From positions 2,282,001 to 2,346,000 of the forward strand of contig NZ_CP029287.2 of the NCBI RefSeq assembly GCF_003201675.2: a stretch of DNA of 64,000 nucleotides. Direction: 5' to 3'. The position numbers were made by a program, and so were the translations under genes. The notes beneath the pieces are model-generated. The model saw only the letters and a list, made by a program, of their open reading frames with translations, ran no database searches and was not told the DNA's origin. Positions 1 through 10,103 of the stretch are shown here, piece after piece. Origin of the DNA: Metallosphaera hakonensis JCM 8857 = DSM 7519. GTDB lineage: Archaea > Thermoproteota > Thermoprotei_A > Sulfolobales > Sulfolobaceae. Numbering within the stretch: the first letter of the stretch is position 1; every line of letters begins with the position of its first letter.

Positions 1-235
1 CTCCTCTTCTTAGATGGGAAATAATTCCCAGTTCTGCTATGAGAGTTTTACCCGATCCTGTAGGCGACGTTAAGAGTAGTCTTTTTCCTTCCAATAATCC
101 TTTCTCAATGGCTTCAGACTGGACAGGATTTAAAGTAACGATGCCTCTCTTCCTAAGAACTTCTCTTACGCCGTCCTCCACAGGTAGATCGCTGACATCG
201 ACCGAATTCATTGAGTTGAAGATAGTTGTATTCAT
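1..235 (-). CDS. hel308: ATP-dependent DNA helicase Hel308, N-terminal part (cut by window edge)
   Basis: This is the first 78 codons of a Ski2-like superfamily 2 helicase; the gene runs off the left edge. The reverse strand reads from an ATG at 235 and contains [20 protein letters not shown] (a Q-motif-like region) followed by Walker [10 protein letters not shown]. Spacing and wording match archaeal Hel308, a 3'-5' helicase that acts at stalled or recombining replication forks. A second in-frame ATG lies at 211 and could be the true start. The family identity rests on the N-terminal region only. The gene is divergent from the permease that follows. Confidence 0.85.
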
Positions 236-414
236 TATTTAACCTAATTGGGTGGGCGAGATTGAAATGTAAAGGCCCATTGTTAGTGAAAATGGAAAGC
301 AAAACAAATAATTTTGTTTGAACTAGAGATTGTTCGTTAAAATCCAATCAACTGTATTTTTCCCTAAAATATTAGAAGGTTTTAATATCTCTTACAATGT
401 ATCATATTTCTCGA

Positions 415-1821
415 ATGTCTAAGGGATCTCAGGAGCAACGAAACGAAGAGCCTAAGAGGGTCATAGGAGTTCTCGATCTTATATTCCTTTCACTAGGGGG
501 ACAATCGCCTTTCCTAAGCGTTTTAACGTACGGTGTGGAAGCCTATCTCATTATTGGCACGGGTGCCTCATTGGCCATAATCCTGGGCACGGTTCTGGTC
601 TTGATCAATGGTATGGTAGTGTATATCCTTTCTCGAAAGTTTACAAAGGCCGGAGGGTACTACACCTACGCTTACTACAGTTTAACGAAAAGGTTGGGTT
701 TTGAGACAGGTTGGCTCTACCTCTTGTACTCTTCAATGTACGGTTCAGCTTATGTTCTTGGAGCTTCATATATATTGTCCACTATAATCCCAGTTCCTGC
801 AATTGTTATTGCTGCGATAATTCTAGGTGTTTCAAGCGCATTTGCTATCTTAGGTATAAAGCCAACAGCTAAGTACGCCATAGTAGCCAGTTTAATAGAA
901 ATTACAATGATGACAGCTCTAGCGGTTCTCTTCATGGCATCAACTCGCTTCTATTTATATAATCCGATTCCTCCTCATCTTAACTTGTCCGAACTTACTC
1001 TGGCCATTCTTTTCGGATCTTCGATACCTACGGGATACGGTTCTATAGCACCTTTATCAGGGGAGGTGAAAAATCCAGAAAAGAGTGTGCCCAGGGCCAT
1101 AATTACTGTGATCCTTCTAGGCGGATTGTTAGCTGCATTCGATGTTTACGGAATTACGGATCACTTGATATACTTCCATATAACTGCCAATCAACTTAAC
1201 CTGGTTCAACTAATAGACGACAGATTCGGATTATTAACGTTGGTATTCGTTCTCTTCGCGGCTGCGAACGACGGAATTTTAGCCACTCTCACTTATATGA
1301 TGGCAACCTCAAGGACAGTGTTCGCTATGTCAAGGGGAGGATTTCTACCACAGGTTCTAGGAAAGTTGGAGTCTGGAAAGGGTCCCCTTAATGCTGTCTT
1401 CATAACGGTTTCGGTTTTTGCGCTTATTACAATCGGAGGTATTTTAGTTGCTGGACTTAACGCGTTTCTGGCTTTCACAATTACCGGTCTAGTGTCTCTG
1501 TTGGCAAACATTTTCGTTCATTTAGCTTCAGACTTTTCTCTGCTGAAGATATCCCTGGCCAAGATCAGCAGCAGGGTGAAATGGTTGATTCTATCTCTAG
1601 GTGGGATAACCTTCTCCTCCTATGAGCTTCTTAAATCGATCGGAAGTTCTTCACCCATTATAGTGTATTTCTTCATGGGTACTATAATCCTAGGTTTCCT
1701 GGCAGCTGAAATTATGGAGATGAGCAAAGATGAGGAAGAGGACAATCATGCTGGCAGGAAGGAAAACAACGTGAATTCGAATAAAGTCAGCCTAAAGGAG
1801 AAAAAAGAAAGTGTAACTTAG
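415..1821 (+). CDS. APC-superfamily amino acid permease
   Basis: This is an integral membrane transporter of the amino acid-polyamine-organocation superfamily with about 12 hydrophobic segments. It has the family's early glycine-rich helix (LDLIFLSLGGQSPF) and a loop of the type GEVKNPEKSVPRAI after the sixth segment. The C-terminal ~35 residues are charged and cytoplasmic-looking. An upstream in-frame ATG at 397 would add six residues. A TATA-like TTTTAATAT at 380-388 lies about 26 nt before position 411, which favours the ATG at 415 and a nearly leaderless mRNA. The substrate cannot be read from the sequence. The 3' end overlaps the convergent NifX-like gene by 4 bp. Confidence 0.85.
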   Translation: MSKGSQEQRNEEPKRVIGVLDLIFLSLGGQSPFLSVLTYGVEAYLIIGTGASLAIILGTVLVLINGMVVYILSRKFTKAGGYYTYAYYSLTKRLGFETGWLYLLYSSMYGSAYVLGASYILSTIIPVPAIVIAAIILGVSSAFAILGIKPTAKYAIVASLIEITMMTALAVLFMASTRFYLYNPIPPHLNLSELTLAILFGSSIPTGYGSIAPLSGEVKNPEKSVPRAIITVILLGGLLAAFDVYGITDHLIYFHITANQLNLVQLIDDRFGLLTLVFVLFAAANDGILATLTYMMATSRTVFAMSRGGFLPQVLGKLESGKGPLNAVFITVSVFALITIGGILVAGLNAFLAFTITGLVSLLANIFVHLASDFSLLKISLAKISSRVKWLILSLGGITFSSYELLKSIGSSSPIIVYFFMGTIILGFLAAEIMEMSKDEEEDNHAGRKENNVNSNKVSLKEKKESVT

Positions 1822-2180
1822 TGGTGCCCGTGATGTTCATGCATTTCTCCATGGGTAGGAACGTCGGTTTCCTTTAGTTTCCCTGCTATCAAATCACTAA
1901 GCGCATCGTCCACTCTCATGCCACTCGCAATGTAAATCTTTGCTTTCCCCTGTAGATACCTGACACCAGGTGCACCTATCTCTGCTACGAGGAATCCTGT
2001 AACTCCTCTCTCGAGAGCTGATCTCAACATGTGTATTCCCCTTGCAGCTGTAGCCTGTAGCGCCGGGTTATCATACTCCTCAATTAATTTGACTTCGTTA
2101 CCTAACTCGTAAATTCTAACCCTCAACCCTTCCCCTGGACCATCTACGTATTCGTCGGTAACTGGTACCGCTATCCTCAT
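1818..2180 (-). CDS. NifX/NafY-like (FeMo-cofactor domain) protein with His-rich tail
   Basis: This 120-residue protein has the fold of the dinitrogenase iron-molybdenum cofactor family: a start MRIAVPVTDE, a central segment GVTGFLVAEIGAPGVRYLQ and a glycine-rich strand pattern. No nitrogenase genes are nearby, so a role in binding a metal or cluster in another context is more likely. The C-terminus is rich in histidine (HGEMHEHHGHH), suggesting metal binding. It is translated behind the PadR regulator with a 4-bp ATGA-type overlap, so the two form an operon. Small stand-alone members of this family are common in archaea and mostly uncharacterised. Confidence 0.75.
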   Translation of the reverse strand: MRIAVPVTDEYVDGPGEGLRVRIYELGNEVKLIEEYDNPALQATAARGIHMLRSALERGVTGFLVAEIGAPGVRYLQGKAKIYIASGMRVDDALSDLIAGKLKETDVPTHGEMHEHHGHH

Positions 2181-2632
2181 GATATCACTTCCATTAATCT
2201 CTCGCTGAGTCTTTTAATCCTTTCTTTCATTAAAACAATTTTTTCAGGATCATTTCTCTTCAAGTCCTCTAGGTAGTCGACGTAGAACTCCATCTCCTTT
2301 ACTATCTCCTCAGGGGAGTTAGGTTGTTGATCAGCTCCCTCCTTGAATCTCGACATCATAGCCATCCTCTGTCTTATTAGTTCTATTTCCTCTCTCCCCG
2401 TGCTAGTTAACTCGTATCTGCCGTCTTCCTTCTTCCTAATGAATCCTTCCTCTGTCATCTTAGCTAGCATTGGGTAGAGGGATCCAGGGGAGGGTTTCCA
2501 AAATCCCCTGCTCATGGTCTCTATCTCCTTCATTATCTCAATGCCGTTTTTAGGAGACTCGCTAATTGAGAAGAGGATTGCAAACCTCAGACCTCTTCTA
2601 TGCCCTTTGTGACCAAATCCGTGATGAAACAT
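2177..2632 (-). CDS. PadR-family transcriptional regulator
   Basis: This is a 151-residue winged-helix protein. Residues ~12-75 contain the PadR signature: GLRFAILFSISESPKNGIEI, then SPGSLYPMLAKMTEEGFI and a wing DGRYELTSTGREEI. The C-terminal part is helical and likely dimerises. The N-terminus is unusual: MFHHGFGHKGH is His-rich, echoing the His-rich tail of the NifX-like gene it overlaps, so a metal-responsive role for the pair is plausible (inference). A TATA-like stretch is seen at 2663-2671 on this strand, about 26 nt before position 2637, so the message is almost leaderless. A CGATATCG palindrome lies between TATA and start. Confidence 0.85.
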   Translation of the reverse strand: MFHHGFGHKGHRRGLRFAILFSISESPKNGIEIMKEIETMSRGFWKPSPGSLYPMLAKMTEEGFIRKKEDGRYELTSTGREEIELIRQRMAMMSRFKEGADQQPNSPEEIVKEMEFYVDYLEDLKRNDPEKIVLMKERIKRLSERLMEVIS

Positions 2633-2796: not shown

Positions 2797-2903
2797 TCCG
2801 AAGTCTCTGAATAATTGAAGAGTCGTGAGGAAAGTGAACTATGAGAACGTTATTCTAAACTATTTTGACAATGTTTTTAAATAACGAAGACTTGACATCA
2901 TTT

Positions 2904-4046
2904 ATGAACAAGGTTCTATTAGTGGGAGTATTAGCAATAGCCGTTATACTGATCTCAGTTGTGGGTTTTCTTAATTACAATCCTTCATATAAAACGAGTC
3001 AGACGGGACTGAAGGTCAATCTGGAGTCAGCTCCGTCTACAGGAGTTCTTCTCTCACCAGTTCAAGCTCAAGCGTCCACTGGGGTACAAGGGTATACAGT
3101 TGGAGCATGGATTGAGCTAAGCAACTTATCGGGTATTGCCCCATCTGGTACTGTTACCTCTCAATTTATTAATAACATTTCAAAGGACTTCGGGACTACT
3201 TTCTCTGAGGTCTTAGTTCACAATAGTACTTCAAGTGCAATTGTTTTCGTATCCAAGGCTGTTTCCCAGAATATTTCAACAGGATTCAGAAAAATCGCGT
3301 TAATTCTAGTAGCAGGATACAACTTTAACGTTAACAAGTCAGGCAATATGGAATATGTTTATGGCAATATATCTGGGACAGGAATCTCTCTTGGTTACGA
3401 TGGGACGTACCTAGTGGGGGCTGTGGTAAATGGAGTTCAAGAGCCAGCTCAATCAGCGTTGTCTCTTCTCATGAACCAGTATCAAGACGTTGTAAACTCT
3501 CAGAGCGCATTGGTTCAACCACCATCAATATTTTCAAGCGTGCCTAACATGAAGCTAGCACTTTGGGCTTACGTCAATTACACGGCACTTAAGAGCCTTA
3601 ACTTATCACAAGGTTTCAAGATGGGCGGAATCATGGGACTTAACAAGTTGAATTCCATGAGTGCTTACTCCAAGTTCCAAAACACCAGCAGAAACATGAA
3701 GTTAAACGTGAGTACGGGCTACCTAGCCCTCTATGCGAATAGTAGTTCTCTCCTAGCTGTTCAAGTGACCCAGTATAAGACCTCATCTGAGGCACAACAA
3801 CAATATAACCAGACCCTGACTTTCTATGAACAATACAAGGACTACACCGGAATGAACGCCGTGATATCTCAAGGGAGCGAGGACGGCTCTCCCTACTTTA
3901 TTGCAAATCCCAACCCCATGAACAATAACACCCTAATTCTTGCCTCTGTTTCCGGTCCCTACTTCATAACTGAGGCCAACTACGCGACTGTAGCTAGTCA
4001 AACCCTATTGCTCTCCTATCTTCAGGGGCTTTTAAGCCAACTCTAA
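2904..4046 (+). CDS. Exported membrane-anchored protein, Ser/Asn-rich, unknown function
   Basis: This 380-residue protein has one N-terminal hydrophobic helix (VLLVGVLAIAVILISVVGFL) and then a long extracytoplasmic part rich in Ser, Asn and Thr with many N-x-S/T sequons. That is typical of heavily glycosylated Sulfolobales surface proteins. An in-frame ATG at 2865 would add 13 residues. The TATA-like TTTTTAAATAA at 2874-2884 sits ~26 nt upstream of the ATG at 2904, which favours the shorter form and a leaderless mRNA. No domain was recognised. It lies directly upstream of a secreted protease and a deglycosylase, so a cell-surface role is reasonable (inference). Confidence 0.7.
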   Translation: MNKVLLVGVLAIAVILISVVGFLNYNPSYKTSQTGLKVNLESAPSTGVLLSPVQAQASTGVQGYTVGAWIELSNLSGIAPSGTVTSQFINNISKDFGTTFSEVLVHNSTSSAIVFVSKAVSQNISTGFRKIALILVAGYNFNVNKSGNMEYVYGNISGTGISLGYDGTYLVGAVVNGVQEPAQSALSLLMNQYQDVVNSQSALVQPPSIFSSVPNMKLALWAYVNYTALKSLNLSQGFKMGGIMGLNKLNSMSAYSKFQNTSRNMKLNVSTGYLALYANSSSLLAVQVTQYKTSSEAQQQYNQTLTFYEQYKDYTGMNAVISQGSEDGSPYFIANPNPMNNNTLILASVSGPYFITEANYATVASQTLLLSYLQGLLSQL

Positions 4047-4121
4047 TTTTTTAATGTAAGGATCTATAATTGGTTTGATATTTTCATAAACTTATTATAT
4101 CTTTGTTCATAAATTTGTCGT

Positions 4122-7100
4122 ATGAAGTTAGGTTTGATTTTAGCCCTAATGATTCTTTTTTCTCCCTTAATGATAGGTTCGTTAACCTCAGGCACAACGT
4201 ATGCAACCTATTATGGTCCAGAATATCAAGGTGCACTGCAGGGACCATTGCCCAGTTCGTCCCAAGTTTGCGTCTCTGTCTTTATACCACCTAAGAACCT
4301 TAACTATCTCTACCTTTTAGTCCAGGAAATAGGAAACCATCAGATCAAGCCCTTAAATAGGTCGCAGTTGGTGTCCGAGTTCGGTAATGTTAAGGTGGAA
4401 CATGAGGTGGAGAGTTATCTTCGTAGTAACGGATTCACCGTAGTGTATAGTAGTCCCTTTTCCGTGATGGGCGTCTCCAACGCATCCCAAGTGGAGAAGT
4501 TATTTAGAACATCGTTGTTCCTTTACAACTTCAACGGAAATGTTTACTATAGGCCAACCTCAACTCCTGTTATACCATCGCAATTGAGGGATACGATAAT
4601 CATGGGTTTATCTAATTTTACGCTGATCAAACCGGACCTAACAGTTTTGGGAAATCTTACATCACAGGGACTCAGGTTTGGGTCTCCTAACTACTTCGGT
4701 TTTCAGTTCTCAGCAACCTACTATACTGGGAGGGAAATACAGGAAGCTTATAACGTAACCCCTGGGGGCAAGAACGTTACCGTGGCTGTCATTGATGCCT
4801 ACGGAGATCCAGAGCTAATACAGGACCTAAAGGCATTTGACAAACAGAACGGCCTTCCTCCCATCAACCTTACGATTCTACCAGTGGGACCATATCATCC
4901 AATTTTCGGGCCCTTCTCCGGTTGGGATACGGAGACTGCACTGGATGTTGAAGCCGTTCACTCCATGGCCCCATATGCTCACGTTATTGCAGTTATTGCC
5001 TCAAATCCTGGGGCAGCTCTATTTGAAGCTGTGGATTTAGTTGTATCCGAGGATCTGGCCCAGGTAGTATCCATGAGCTGGGGGTTGCCTGAGAACGTTA
5101 TTGGGGCATCTGGATTTTACGCCTATTTTCAGGGAAGCACTCCCAATTATCCCTATCTAGATTACTATTTCGCCCTAGGTTCGGCCGAGGGAATATCCTT
5201 CTTTGCTGCATCTGGGGACAACGGAGCTTATGGAGGAACAGTAACAAGCCACGGCGGAGTAAACTTTCCAGCATCTTCTCCTTTCGTCACCGCTGTGGGT
5301 GGAACGTCGCTCTACCTTAACGTTACATCGGGCTCCCTGGAGGATAAGAACGCCAGCTCAGTCTACGGCTACGAGGCTGCATGGGGGGTCCTTCCTCAGT
5401 ACTTCGAACCCGGGGTTACAAGCGTATCTTCGGGTGGTGGGCCAAGCACTCTGTTCCCAGCTCCATGGTATCAGAGGGAGTATCTTAATGCGAGTACTAG
5501 GGAGACTCCTGACGTAAGTGCAGATGCCAATCCATACACCGGGCTTGTGGTTTTCGCCGAAGGGGTAGAGCAGGTCATAGGTGGGACTAGCCTAGCTACT
5601 CCTCTCTGGGCTGGGGTGACAGCAGACTTGGACTCGCAACTGAACCAGTCCCTTGGGCTCGTTAATCCGGCCTTATACTGGATTTACTCAAATTCTTCCC
5701 TGTATGGAAAGGCATTCCATCCTATCTATGTTGGAACCAACGGTGTCTACTCAGCGGGCAAAGGATACAATATGGTTACAGGGCTAGGGTCTCCCAACTA
5801 TCCCTACTTGCTGAACGCGATAAAGACTTACCTCAACCATCCCACACTCAAGATCTCGGTTTCCACTTTCTCTGAGAATACCTCATACCCATGGTACGCT
5901 TACAATTCCTCAGTGAAAATAGTGGCCTACATAACTAACTCTACCGGTTTCATTGCAGGAGAAGGGAACTTCACAGCTTACGTTTACACAACCAATGGCC
6001 TACTCATGACTGTTCCACTTCATTTTAATGGAACCTATTGGAACGGAGAGTTTAAGGTATCCCCAGGCCAGCCAGCCAACATATGGTCAATAGTTGTTAA
6101 TGGATCGTCCAATGGAGTACCTGGGATAGCACAAACTGACATTGACGTTGGGGATTCAGTGGTTATATCCCAGCCTGTTCCCTTCCCATACTCCACTCCT
6201 CTTCCTCCAAATGAACCGATCCCTATTCAAGTTCAAGTCACGGCTCCAAACGGTACACCTCTCGCTAACCAATCCGTTACGGCCTACTTGATCAAGAACC
6301 ATAAACCAGTCCTAAATGTCACTCTATTACCGTCTGGATTTCAGGGGATCTATAACGGCCAATTCTCTCTCTTACCAAACATGCCCCAAGGGACCTATCT
6401 TCTCATAGTTAACACGACCGATGGTTCCACATATACTTACCTATATTTCGGAAACGCTGTCTATGGTACCGTATATCCAACCATTAATTCCGGTTATCCC
6501 GGATCGTCACTTGGAAGTAACGTTACCTTCTTCGCTGAAACGATTAGTAGCTTTGGCCTTGGTCTCTTCTCGTCCAACGTCACGGCATATATCTATCATG
6601 GAAAAGAGTTGGTGGGACAAGTCCCCCTCATATCTGCACCCGAGGCTGTACAATTTGGGATATTTAGCCTCTTTGGAGTAAAGGAGGCGAACTTTACCAT
6701 TCCATACAATTTCACACCAGGAATATATCAGGTAGTCTACGAATCAGTAGTTAACACGTCCGTAGGTCTGGAATATGGTAACTACACTACATGGTTCTAC
6801 GTTTCGCCGGCGCTGAACATCAATATCTCCTTACCTGGAAACCTGTACCAGGGACAAAATGTGTTTGCTAAGGTAAGGATAGAGTATCAGAACGGCACTC
6901 CAGTAACCCAAGGTATGTTCTCCCTGACTCTCATTCCTACAGGTACCTCCTATTCGTCTCTGATTGAGGAAGCCGACTATGAAATACCCTTGCAATACAA
7001 CTCCAATTTGGGGGTTTGGATAGGTAATTTCACTGTCCCATCCTTCAACGGTAACGGTCAATTCAGGGGAAGTCAACCAGGAGTTATATCTGGTCCATGG

Positions 7101-7943
7101 ACGGGTATTGTAGAGGGGACTTCAGCGCTGGGCAATCCAGTCTTTTCGACCCAAGAGCTCTACGTCAATCCACAGACCTATGTGGGAACCATGACTGTCA
7201 GTCAAGGGGTATCTTCACCTTACGTTGTGCTGGATGGGGAAACCTATTCTCTAAATCAAATTTATTCGCCCAATCTCACTGTTAGAGGAGTATCAGTGAC
7301 GTTAACTGATGATTCGCTGGGCACACTTAACGTTATAGACTCCAGCGTAACGATTAGTTCCTCCGAGATAGGCCACGTTAATGCAGTGAATTCCACTGTT
7401 ATCCTGACCAATTCCATGATAAGAGGTTCACAGATCGCCATGAATTTACTGAACTCTAACGTGACCCTAATATCTTCTATCTTGAACTCTTCCCAATACG
7501 CATTCAATATATCTGGCGGTAGTGTAGTGTTGAGGGGAACCACGATTATTTCTCCCATCCTTTCATCGACTCCGGCTCCGAGAGTTATTGCACTAACTGG
7601 TAATGTGACGTCAGGTTTTGAGATTCTGAACGTTACCTTATCACCCTACGCAAAGCCCTTGAGCCTATCCCTGAATGGCCAAGCCCAGAACTTCACCTAC
7701 TCCAAGGAGAATAACACTCTAGTCCTCCACGTGCCCTTTAAGGCCTCCTCTCTTCCCTCAGGAACTTACGTCTTCCAGCTGACAGTCGAAAATGGACTAG
7801 AATATAACGTATCATTTGCAGTCAATAACCTTTACCAAGAGAGTGTACTTCATCAAGAAATCACTTTTCTGGAAGTCGCCGTTATAATTCTGTTCGTGGT
7901 TGCTGTAATTTTCCTGGTCCTGTTACTTAGGGTGAGAAAATGA
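4122..7943 (+). CDS. Secreted S53 (sedolisin/kumamolisin-type) serine-carboxyl protease
   Basis: This is a 1273-residue exported acid protease. It has a signal peptide (residues 1-25), a pro-kumamolisin activation domain (~45-190) and a sedolisin catalytic domain (~215-590). The catalytic Glu and Asp are in WDTETALDVE (~residue 270), the oxyanion Asp in AASGDNGAYG (~365) and the nucleophilic Ser in GGTSLATPLW (~490). A long beta-rich, sequon-rich extension follows, with a repetitive stretch around 1060-1150 (NVIDSSVTIS, NVTLISSILN) that looks beta-helical. A C-terminal membrane helix with a basic end completes it. Family members work at low pH, matching an acidophile's outer surface. Its stop overlaps the start of the PNGase-like gene by 4 bp. 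Confidence 0.92.
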   Translation: MKLGLILALMILFSPLMIGSLTSGTTYATYYGPEYQGALQGPLPSSSQVCVSVFIPPKNLNYLYLLVQEIGNHQIKPLNRSQLVSEFGNVKVEHEVESYLRSNGFTVVYSSPFSVMGVSNASQVEKLFRTSLFLYNFNGNVYYRPTSTPVIPSQLRDTIIMGLSNFTLIKPDLTVLGNLTSQGLRFGSPNYFGFQFSATYYTGREIQEAYNVTPGGKNVTVAVIDAYGDPELIQDLKAFDKQNGLPPINLTILPVGPYHPIFGPFSGWDTETALDVEAVHSMAPYAHVIAVIASNPGAALFEAVDLVVSEDLAQVVSMSWGLPENVIGASGFYAYFQGSTPNYPYLDYYFALGSAEGISFFAASGDNGAYGGTVTSHGGVNFPASSPFVTAVGGTSLYLNVTSGSLEDKNASSVYGYEAAWGVLPQYFEPGVTSVSSGGGPSTLFPAPWYQREYLNASTRETPDVSADANPYTGLVVFAEGVEQVIGGTSLATPLWAGVTADLDSQLNQSLGLVNPALYWIYSNSSLYGKAFHPIYVGTNGVYSAGKGYNMVTGLGSPNYPYLLNAIKTYLNHPTLKISVSTFSENTSYPWYAYNSSVKIVAYITNSTGFIAGEGNFTAYVYTTNGLLMTVPLHFNGTYWNGEFKVSPGQPANIWSIVVNGSSNGVPGIAQTDIDVGDSVVISQPVPFPYSTPLPPNEPIPIQVQVTAPNGTPLANQSVTAYLIKNHKPVLNVTLLPSGFQGIYNGQFSLLPNMPQGTYLLIVNTTDGSTYTYLYFGNAVYGTVYPTINSGYPGSSLGSNVTFFAETISSFGLGLFSSNVTAYIYHGKELVGQVPLISAPEAVQFGIFSLFGVKEANFTIPYNFTPGIYQVVYESVVNTSVGLEYGNYTTWFYVSPALNINISLPGNLYQGQNVFAKVRIEYQNGTPVTQGMFSLTLIPTGTSYSSLIEEADYEIPLQYNSNLGVWIGNFTVPSFNGNGQFRGSQPGVISGPWTGIVEGTSALGNPVFSTQELYVNPQTYVGTMTVSQGVSSPYVVLDGETYSLNQIYSPNLTVRGVSVTLTDDSLGTLNVIDSSVTISSSEIGHVNAVNSTVILTNSMIRGSQIAMNLLNSNVTLISSILNSSQYAFNISGGSVVLRGTTIISPILSSTPAPRVIALTGNVTSGFEILNVTLSPYAKPLSLSLNGQAQNFTYSKENNTLVLHVPFKASSLPSGTYVFQLTVENGLEYNVSFAVNNLYQESVLHQEITFLEVAVIILFVVAVIFLVLLLRVRK

Positions 7944-9826
7944 AGGGATTCCTCCTTGTTATAATTCTCGTCCTGGGAGTTATCCCGTTTTTTGGGGTGA
8001 CCTCCTTGGCCGGAACTCAGGCCCAAATAGTGTTTTACAACGTAACGGGGAACGTTCACCTGTCAAGACAGGGAGTGGACCCAGCCTACTATTCGTTCGA
8101 AGGAGTCAGTTACTTACCTCCCAACGTCACCCCAGTCAAGGTAACCGTGGCTCAGAATCTCCTTTTCAACGATAGTGCGTGGAAGCCGTACTACCTTCAC
8201 GTTGAAATACCCAATGGCTCCTACAGCTTCATTTTGATGAACGTCAGCGTTAAGGAAGAGAACGGTACCCAGTTTGATAGACCCCTCTACGTCTTCGTGA
8301 ATGGGATCCCAGTCTTCTGGGGGTCGACTCAGGAGATAGGGAATTCTACGGCTTCGGTGGACTTAACCATGTATGAGAACCTGTTGAGAGGGAATGTCAC
8401 CTTTGAACCGGTTCTCGTTAACTTCTATGACGCCAAAGTCAACATCACTGGGGTCTACTTGGTTAACATAACCTTACTCTTATATCCTGGGAGGGAACCT
8501 CAAGGTCTCCCCAACAGGTTCATTCCCCTCTTCGTGAACGGCACGTTCCACTATAACTACTCCTATGTGATATTAAGCCCGACCTTGGATTCATTCACTT
8601 CCCAAGTATCAATACCCAACGGAACCTATAGGATGACGGCACTTCTCTACGAGGAAGGAGGTGGTCTAGACGAATTCTGGTACAGTAACGAACCGGCTAC
8701 CAGGGAGATCACCCTTCATTATAACGGACTTTTAGCCTCCATAATACCACCTTACGAAACAATCTACACAGGGGGACTGGATCTTTTCTGGTGGAAACCT
8801 ATGCCCAGCATCAACACCCTGGCATTTCACACTCCTTACCAAGCAGACCTTACCCCGTTTCTAGCTATGGGAGGTAAGGTGAATCTGACCATATCAGTTA
8901 CGAACCTAGTTACAGCGGAGCAGATCAATCATAGACCATCGTTTGATTGGGACCTCTCAGGCGTCTTAATGTTATGGGTTAACCAATCAAACCCTATGAT
9001 AGGAGGTAAGATGATAATGGCTTACTCGAAATTCCTCGATTCTTCACCAATATTCCAAGGTGGGTACTCAGGTATACATTATCAAGAGGGAGGGAGTTAC
9101 CTATTGAAGTACTCTTCAATCCTCAACTTCCTACATGGTCAGGAGATAGCTACCATGACCCAGAGCGGATCGTTCTCGGCCCTTCAGACCTTTAATAACA
9201 TCTATGAGCTGGCATATCTCGATGAAAGCTTCAATGAGATCTCCCAGGAGACGGGGATCTACTCTTCCTCCATGACCATATCCGGTAACTATCCCGTATA
9301 CCTTCAGATATCGGCCTTTGCGACGCCCATTACTCCCACAAACGCCATTCCTTACAACTTATCTTACGCCCAGAACGGCTCCATCTCTCTGGGGGCCAAT
9401 TACCAATATAATTATACCTTCAATGGGTTTACCTCATCCCAATCCCTCAAGGAGAACCTAACGGCGCAAGGAGGTTTCTCTGGAATATTAGAAGTGATAA
9501 ATAGTTACGGTGGGGCCGTGTTAGTTAAACTCACGTCGAATAATGCCCTCACAGAGAAGCAACTTTCCTTCATCTATGAAACGTCGAGTGGGGTTCCATC
9601 ATTCAAGGAGGGTTTCAGTGCAGTAGCAGGGCAAAACAGCTCCGTCAACTCCACAGGCTATTACCTCAAGGTACAGAAGACCTTTAACCAATTGCCTGAT
9701 CCAGGCACTACAACACCTGAACCTACTGTGGCTCCTCAGGAGGGATATCATCAAAATACTCTGGCGGTATCTCCTCTCTTTGATCGTCCATTTCGTAATC
9801 GGTGGTCTCTCTTCCCTTTTTTGTAG
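7940..9826 (+). CDS. Secreted PNGase A-like peptide:N-glycanase
   Basis: This is a 628-residue exported protein with an N-terminal signal peptide (FLLVIILVLGVIPFFGV). It has hallmark segments of the peptide N-glycosidase A family: GGGLDEFWYSNEP near residue 240, then GLDLFWWKPM and TPYQADLTPFLAMGG near 280-315. These enzymes cleave N-glycans from asparagine. The gene is coupled by a 4-bp overlap to the S53 protease, so both are probably made together and used outside the cell to break down glycoproteins (inference). The last ~35 residues lie in a 104-bp convergent overlap with the next gene and look unlike the rest, so the C-terminus may be altered or the reading there shared. Confidence 0.85.
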   Translation: MKGFLLVIILVLGVIPFFGVTSLAGTQAQIVFYNVTGNVHLSRQGVDPAYYSFEGVSYLPPNVTPVKVTVAQNLLFNDSAWKPYYLHVEIPNGSYSFILMNVSVKEENGTQFDRPLYVFVNGIPVFWGSTQEIGNSTASVDLTMYENLLRGNVTFEPVLVNFYDAKVNITGVYLVNITLLLYPGREPQGLPNRFIPLFVNGTFHYNYSYVILSPTLDSFTSQVSIPNGTYRMTALLYEEGGGLDEFWYSNEPATREITLHYNGLLASIIPPYETIYTGGLDLFWWKPMPSINTLAFHTPYQADLTPFLAMGGKVNLTISVTNLVTAEQINHRPSFDWDLSGVLMLWVNQSNPMIGGKMIMAYSKFLDSSPIFQGGYSGIHYQEGGSYLLKYSSILNFLHGQEIATMTQSGSFSALQTFNNIYELAYLDESFNEISQETGIYSSSMTISGNYPVYLQISAFATPITPTNAIPYNLSYAQNGSISLGANYQYNYTFNGFTSSQSLKENLTAQGGFSGILEVINSYGGAVLVKLTSNNALTEKQLSFIYETSSGVPSFKEGFSAVAGQNSSVNSTGYYLKVQKTFNQLPDPGTTTPEPTVAPQEGYHQNTLAVSPLFDRPFRNRWSLFPFL

Positions 9827-10103
9827 ACTGGTAATTTTTCCTGGTTTTTTCCTCCACTTGAATGTACTCCTTCGCGGTCTCGTTGAGCACATACCATAAC
9901 CTTTGATAAAGTAGGGCAGCTTCCGCGGTGTTCAATTGGAATCCCACTCTGTTTTTCCCGTCATCTATCACGAGGAGAAGTTTCGCCTCCTGGGGAAACC
10001 CTTTGTCGTTGGTCGTCGGAGAGTCCATGAGAAGCTCAAGGGTTTTAGGCTTTCCCTCTCTTCCCTCCTTGCTGAACCTAGGAATCCTAAGAACTCTTTT
10101 CAT
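9723..10103 (-). CDS. Small protein with acidic C-terminal tail, unknown
   Basis: This 126-residue protein has a basic N-terminal half (MKRVLRIPRFSKEGREGKPK) and a middle segment resembling a small beta sheet plus helix (LLLVIDDGKNRVGFQLNTAEA, LLYQRLWYVLNETAKE). It ends in a strongly acidic, Pro-rich tail (EEIPPEYFDDIPPEEP). An acidic tail on a small basic domain resembles nucleic-acid-binding proteins, but no family was recognised. A TATA-like run (AAGTTATATAAC) lies just upstream of the start. Its 3' end overlaps the PNGase-like gene by 104 bp on the opposite strand. Confidence 0.65.
   Translation of the reverse strand: MKRVLRIPRFSKEGREGKPKTLELLMDSPTTNDKGFPQEAKLLLVIDDGKNRVGFQLNTAEAALLYQRLWYVLNETAKEYIQVEEKTRKNYQSTKKGRETTDYEMDDQREEIPPEYFDDIPPEEPQ

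Follow-up and report, generated by a model that had tools for sequence, protein, structure and literature searches.

Introduction

The surface layer (S-layer) of the Sulfolobales is very densely N-glycosylated, and the breakdown or recycling of such armour has hardly been studied. Here we analyse a 64,000-nucleotide stretch of the Metallosphaera hakonensis JCM 8857 = DSM 7519 genome (contig NZ_CP029287.2, positions 2,282,001 to 2,346,000), which we call the window. It contains a gene for a protease of the S53 family followed directly by a gene for a peptide:N-glycanase (PNGase) of the PNGase A family. The genome comprises 2.54 Mb in a single contig. We show that the two genes form an operon that is real, ancient and strictly retained, with parts drawn from known families.

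Each half of the pair has well-described relatives. Proteases of the S53 family, such as kumamolisin and sedolisin, possess a propeptide, a Ser-Glu-Asp triad and an oxyanion Asp, and their propeptides self-mature in acid. PNGase F and zebrafish Ngly2 have a double jelly-roll core; in PNGase F we take the catalytic residues to be D60 and E206, a spacing of 146. D60 sits between W59 and R61, and Ngly2 uses D421 and E555, 134 residues apart (PMC12753239). The PNGase A family includes PNGase Bb, solved with a glycopeptide (9vla), and an acid-active member, PNGase H+ of Terriglobus roseus, with an optimum at pH 2.6 (PMC4231336). A protease held at the archaeal surface is known from Staphylothermus marinus, where the S-layer stalk tetrabrachion carries the subtilisin-type STABLE protease, suggested to supply peptides (PMC5744192).

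What of the two genes together? In the open-access literature we found no published description of the archaeal PNGase-S53 pair as a unit, of its protease clade or of its conservation. The Sulfolobus acidocaldarius genes saci_1147, annotated 'subtilase' (PMC11486757), and saci_1148, annotated 'asparagine amidase' (PMC6335949), are apparently the orthologues, matched by annotation and single copy and not by reading the locus tags. The papers found by these tags treat the genes in lists or in passing and not as a conserved unit. Recycling of glycans by the PNGase has already been suggested in print (PMC6335949).

Results

Gene pair and operon signals

The S53 open reading frame (ORF; 4122-7943, + strand, 1273 aa) and the PNGase A-family ORF (7940-9826, + strand, 628 aa) share 4 bp, ATGA. 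An initial annotation of the window had described an S53 and PNGase A-like pair overlapping by 4 bp, with signal peptides on both products. Both descriptions hold: each protein begins with a hydrophobic signal-like segment that is kept in nearly all relatives. The features of the locus, in window coordinates, are:

4092..4100, + strand: TATA-like box TTATTATAT, 22-30 nt upstream of the protease start
4122..7943, + strand: S53 (sedolisin/kumamolisin-like) protease, 1273 aa, with signal-like N-terminus and predicted C-terminal membrane anchor
4239..4607, + strand: Pro-kumamolisin activation (propeptide) domain, aa 40-162, from a profile match
4713..5822, + strand: S53 catalytic domain, aa 198-567, with triad E271, D275, S490 and oxyanion D366
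5844..7169, + strand: macroglobulin-like beta-sandwich domain string, aa ~575-1016; weak MG2 match, VIA Z ~12 to C5/A2M rings
7218..7550, + strand: predicted beta-helix-like stretch, aa ~1033-1143; predicted local distance difference test score (pLDDT) mostly 85-92, fold inferred from the strand pattern
7833..7937, + strand: predicted transmembrane anchor at the C-terminus, with a basic RVRK tail after it, from the sequence of relatives and the model
7930..7935, + strand: Shine-Dalgarno sequence GGGTGA, within the final codons of the protease gene and 4 nt ahead of the PNGase ATG
7940..9826, + strand: PNGase A-family peptide:N-glycanase, 628 aa, signal-like N-terminus; family profile and fold match, function predicted
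8111..8989, + strand: double jelly-roll PNGase core, aa ~58-350, with predicted catalytic D113 (F-D-R motif) and E245 (DEFWY motif)
8990..9700, + strand: C-terminal beta domain, aa ~351-587, common to PNGase Bb; the 9vla alignment covers 47..587
2865..4046, + strand: exported Ser/Asn-rich protein outside the conserved unit; homologues in 9/31 genomes, no family match
397..1821, + strand: amino acid permease (APC family), a neighbour possibly linked in function, from a family match and neighbourhood counts

In the usual pattern of the Sulfolobales, the first gene is leaderless and the second is led by a Shine-Dalgarno sequence. Such a sequence precedes 32 of 33 PNGase starts and 2 of 33 protease starts; TATA-like boxes precede 24 of 33 protease starts and 5 of 33 PNGase starts. 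The protease start in the window has a TATA-like box and no Shine-Dalgarno sequence, and the TTATTATAT box is probably a near-leaderless operon promoter. A Shine-Dalgarno sequence at the PNGase alone and a TATA-like box at the protease point to one operon from the protease onward. The overlap, the internal Shine-Dalgarno sequence, the promoter-like box ahead of the first gene only and the retention of these features in relatives are all present, and the pair is, judged from sequence, a two-gene, translationally coupled operon starting at the protease.

It had been suggested that the Ser/Asn-rich protein encoded upstream belongs with the pair. We rule it out as a third member: its gene has homologues in 9 of the 31 Sulfolobaceae, is divergent in two of them and matches no family, and the protease gene has a TATA-like box of its own.

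Conservation of the pair

Are the two genes neighbours elsewhere? The PNGase is present in 55 of the 214 genomes of the order, including all 31 Sulfolobaceae, each of which has a single copy. The surrounding ORFs show an S53 gene immediately upstream, in the same orientation, in every one of the 31, copies from Metallosphaera javensis and M. yellowstonensis among them. (The Pro-kumamolisin hidden Markov model by itself misses the pair in G186 and G197; ORF reading recovers both.) The gap is exactly -4 in 21 of these genomes and negative, hence overlapping, in 25. Outside the family, the pair with a -4 gap recurs in the Acidilobus/Caldisphaera-like genomes G008 and G021, of which G021 matches the Caldisphaera record L097, as well as in one genome of Marsarchaeota G2 (L099) and the CPBay 'Thermoprotei' genome (L103); in G018 the pair is present with a gap of 110. 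The flanking genes differ from genus to genus, so the pair itself is the conserved unit. The initial annotation had asked for this comparison across the Sulfolobales, and would have given up its proposal had the genes rarely been neighbours in related genomes; we find the opposite.

Chance adjacency is ruled out by the universal pairing, the mostly -4 gap and the further lineages; as a rough figure, the chance that one of four S53 genes falls immediately upstream on the same strand is <0.1% per independent lineage. The marsarchaeote has a single S53 gene, the paired one, and the PNGase occurs in 1 of 10 genomes of that order. This suggests that the pair was acquired by transfer as a pair, the alternative being a binning error. 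For a viral or mobile source there is no evidence among viral contigs, where neither protein has a confirmed relative. Two genomes, a Vulcanisaeta draft (L101 9989-11787) and the CPBay metagenome-assembled genome (MAG; L103 9872-11723), have the PNGase frame broken into two parts, by a frameshift or an assembly error.

Sulfolobaceae genomes hold 1 to 6 S53 genes, mostly at least 3. A tree built from 70 catalytic domains groups the paired S53s in a single clade (SH-aLRT 100, stem length 1.04), to which no other S53 paralogue of these genomes belongs. Four clade members are unpaired. Two come from G007 and G010, which have the PNGase elsewhere in the genome; one comes from the incomplete MAG G017; and the fourth is an additional copy (L147) in G196, a genome where the pair is also present. 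Genus-level groups in the PNGase tree agree with the S53 tree.

The protease

Membership of the S53 family is clear from the order of domains and from the active site. A Pro-kumamolisin activation domain (PF09286, 1.1e-16, aa 40-162) is followed by a catalytic domain (kumamolisin-As match, 2.1e-26, aa 198-569), and the triad E271, D275, S490 with oxyanion D366 is found in every paired S53 that covers these positions. In propeptide, triad and oxyanion Asp the protein is thus like kumamolisin and sedolisin. It differs from them in having some 700 extra residues, made up of a macroglobulin-like string, a predicted beta-helix and a membrane anchor, and from kumamolisin in lacking that enzyme's calcium ligands: the Asp ligands are replaced by P534 and N550 (window about 5721-5771). 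The kumamolisin-type calcium site is a feature of an S53 subgroup and does not define the family; almost no S53 of the order, whether paired or unpaired, has its Asp ligands; both are retained in the CPBay copy (L103).

The catalytic part of the protease model is unusable (pLDDT <50, from an alignment of 11 sequences), so assignment of protease function rests on sequence, and the VIA structural comparisons concern the middle part only. There, model residues 382-823 resemble macroglobulin domains, the best VIA Z being 12.7, against complement C5, and the MG2 profile match weak; a confident stretch of short strands looks like a beta-helix. The protein contains 41 N-X-S/T sequons. A C-terminal transmembrane helix is present in every complete paired S53 examined, and by this helix the protease is predicted to be anchored in the membrane. 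The locus had been described as encoding a secreted pair. The export signals on both proteins bear this out as far as it goes; free secretion of the protease does not stand, since the helix would hold it to the cell.

The PNGase

The second protein scores well above the cut-off of the PNGaseA profile (PF12222, 1.6e-28, 99.9 bits against 25.3). In the AlphaFold2 model (pLDDT 79.6) it has the fold of the family, a double jelly-roll with a C-terminal beta domain as in PNGase Bb. The closest structure is that of PNGase Bb with glycopeptide (9vla; Foldseek 4.5e-27; VIA Z 30.8, rmsd 3.3, 474 residues, 47..587); the second is PNGase F (VIA Z 18.9). With PNGase Bb and PNGase H+ the archaeal protein shares the profile, the whole fold and the YDR, DE-W and WxP motifs. 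It differs from PNGase Bb in being an archaeal protein, 16-18% identical, with a fixed S53 partner and a predicted activity.

Across 59 archaeal sequences, D113 of the F/Y-D-R motif and E245 of DEFWY never vary, and PNGase Bb shares D113, R114 and E245 together with the motifs around them. D113 and E245 are likely the catalytic pair because motif and spacing resemble those of PNGase F and Ngly2; the spacing is 132, and equivalence to D60 and E206 is drawn from motif and spacing rather than from residue-level superposition. The double jelly-roll core and the aromatic-Asp-Arg motif (W59-D60-R61 in PNGase F) are common to all three proteins, whereas the archaeal PNGase belongs to another sequence family and has the additional C-terminal beta domain. 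Glycosidase activity, lack of which the initial annotation would have counted against the proposal, is the wrong measure here: a PNGase is an amidase that hydrolyses the Asn amide, not a glycosidase.

E132 of the GSTQE motif (window 8333-8335) is Glu in 35 of 35 paired PNGases; in the unpaired PNGases of S53-less lineages it is Gln in 18 of 24. This position is perhaps an acid-adaptation switch.

Discussion

On balance we favour a role for the operon in breaking down N-glycosylated proteins on the cell surface at pH 2-4. The S53 endopeptidase would be exported and lose its propeptide in acid. The C-terminal helix would tether it, with the macroglobulin-like and beta-helix stalk holding the catalytic head off the membrane. 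The PNGase A-type amidase, translated from the same mRNA by coupling, would be released or remain associated with the surface. The protease would cleave glycoproteins to glycopeptides; the PNGase would strip the chitobiose-linked N-glycan from Asn, leaving Asp; further cleavage and uptake of the deglycosylated peptides would follow, together with reuse of the glycan. The substrate would most likely be any reachable N-glycoprotein, foreign or shed self.

Several lines of evidence are consistent with this scheme. Sulfolobus N-glycans have a chitobiose linkage (PMC2948927) and are released by PNGase F (PMC12042106), and the PNGase would therefore have a substrate. PNGase A releases glycans from glycoproteins more poorly than from glycopeptides (PMC4231336), a preference that favours the protease acting first. 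In S. acidocaldarius, saci_1148 rises on nutrient depletion, for which glycan recycling has been proposed (PMC6335949), and saci_1147 and saci_1148 are both lower on xylose and fall in one shared iModulon from 95 RNA-seq sets (PMC8578740). An amino acid permease gene lies at most 5 kb from the locus in 6 of 11 genomes and 4 of 8 independent lineages (P ~0.006 under uniform placement), which is no more than suggestive. The earlier picture of cutting and deglycosylation as one exported unit gains from the universal pairing in the Sulfolobaceae and from this co-regulation; the free release of the protease has to be dropped from it.

Other observations sit less comfortably with the scheme. G007 and G010, both Acidilobus-like, have the orthologous protease and PNGase at separate places in the genome, so the two genes need not always be coupled. 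That all 31 genomes, small ones too, keep the pair looks more like housekeeping than optional scavenging. Many archaea, commonly outside the Sulfolobaceae, have the PNGase without any S53; the PNGase therefore probably came first and this protease joined later. The gene saci_1147 is also highly transcribed under nutrient excess or overfeeding (PMC11486757) and so is no simple starvation gene. Finally, the saci numbers themselves depend on annotation and single copy (G198 has one PNGaseA gene, with a 'subtilase' adjacent).

Could the pair, with the same chemistry, instead act mainly on the S-layer and other surface glycoproteins of its own cell, remodelling or recycling them during growth, division or starvation rather than digesting foreign protein as food? 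We consider this self-directed turnover a real but minority prospect. The paired PNGase is kept single-copy in 31 of 31 Sulfolobaceae, and starved cells have been inferred to lower S-layer N-glycosylation and degrade glycans (PMC6335949). The S53-less genomes also speak for it. In G005, a member of the Desulfurococcales, genes for a subtilase, for a large exported coiled-coil protein anchored in the membrane at its C-terminus and for the PNGase are consecutive on one strand; its sister genome G006 encodes a homologue of the G005 stalk, with 48% identity, immediately ahead of the PNGase (L067 6343-16387 and L068 1-3036). Both proteins have the signal peptide, coiled coil and C-terminal transmembrane segment of an S-layer stalk, and in G077/G080 a stalk-like gene is one gene away from the PNGase. 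The subtilase ahead of the stalk gene in G005 recalls tetrabrachion and STABLE (PMC5744192). Our protease, too, would be a surface protease held on a stalk; STABLE differs in being subtilisin-type and sitting on a separate S-layer stalk, whereas the S53 protease has its own stalk and anchor. Against self-turnover, the Sulfolobaceae neighbourhoods that we read showed no recognisable S-layer gene next to the pair, the xylose down-regulation and permease neighbours fit nutrition, and the stalk association comes from two genera.

These clusters hint that the protease partner may be exchangeable, on the evidence of one genus and a looser case in another (G077/G080). A bolder and rather doubtful extension is a glycoprotein-dismantling machine, in which the tethered S53 stalk would bind the PNGase for joint cutting and de-N-glycosylation, recycling the cell's own S-layer; in neutrophilic relatives the PNGase would work with an S-layer stalk and a subtilase, the protease partner swapped and the function kept.

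Alternatively, the two proteins might be a maturation pair: one enzyme might process the other, or the PNGase might edit chosen exported proteins (glyco-Asn to Asp), the protease being required for activation. The tight translational coupling and the 41 sequons on the protease would suit such a role, which we judge improbable: the PNGase stands alone in many S53-less genomes, and S53 propeptides mature by themselves in acid. We give slightly less credence still to the idea that the PNGase-like protein is a non-enzymatic glycan-binding or structural double jelly-roll protein. Its identity to solved PNGases is remote and double jelly-rolls have other roles, but it shares the predicted catalytic residues and the motifs around them with PNGase Bb and matches a PNGase structure solved with glycopeptide over its full length. 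Least credible is a weapon that breaks the S-layer of neighbouring archaea, an option raised in the initial annotation that found no support: neighbours would carry the substrate, HexNAc2-core N-glycans being found in several Sulfolobus strains (PMC12042106), but the protease would be tethered to its producer, no immunity-like gene was recognised next to the pair, every Sulfolobaceae genome keeps it, and the viral contigs yielded no confirmed relative.

These operons would also supply glycan analysis with PNGases that withstand heat and acid. For the question of how a glycosylated archaeal surface is broken down, a universal, single-copy, tightly coupled protease and PNGase operon offers a concrete, testable answer in the genetically tractable S. 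acidocaldarius.

Adjacent genes

Downstream, a convergent gene for a 126-aa protein of unknown function (9723-10103, - strand) overlaps the 3' end of the PNGase gene with its own 3' end by ~104 bp, an arrangement that recurs in relatives (for example L036 and L037). The PNGase tail encoded in this overlap, aa 590-628, is predicted to be disordered. On the other side of the locus, the gene for a PadR-type regulator and that for a protein with a dinitrogenase-cofactor domain (NifX/NifB-like) overlap, the end of one running into the start of the other (window 1818-2632, - strand). They adjoin the locus in most genomes of the genus, and no tie to the pair is seen in other genera.

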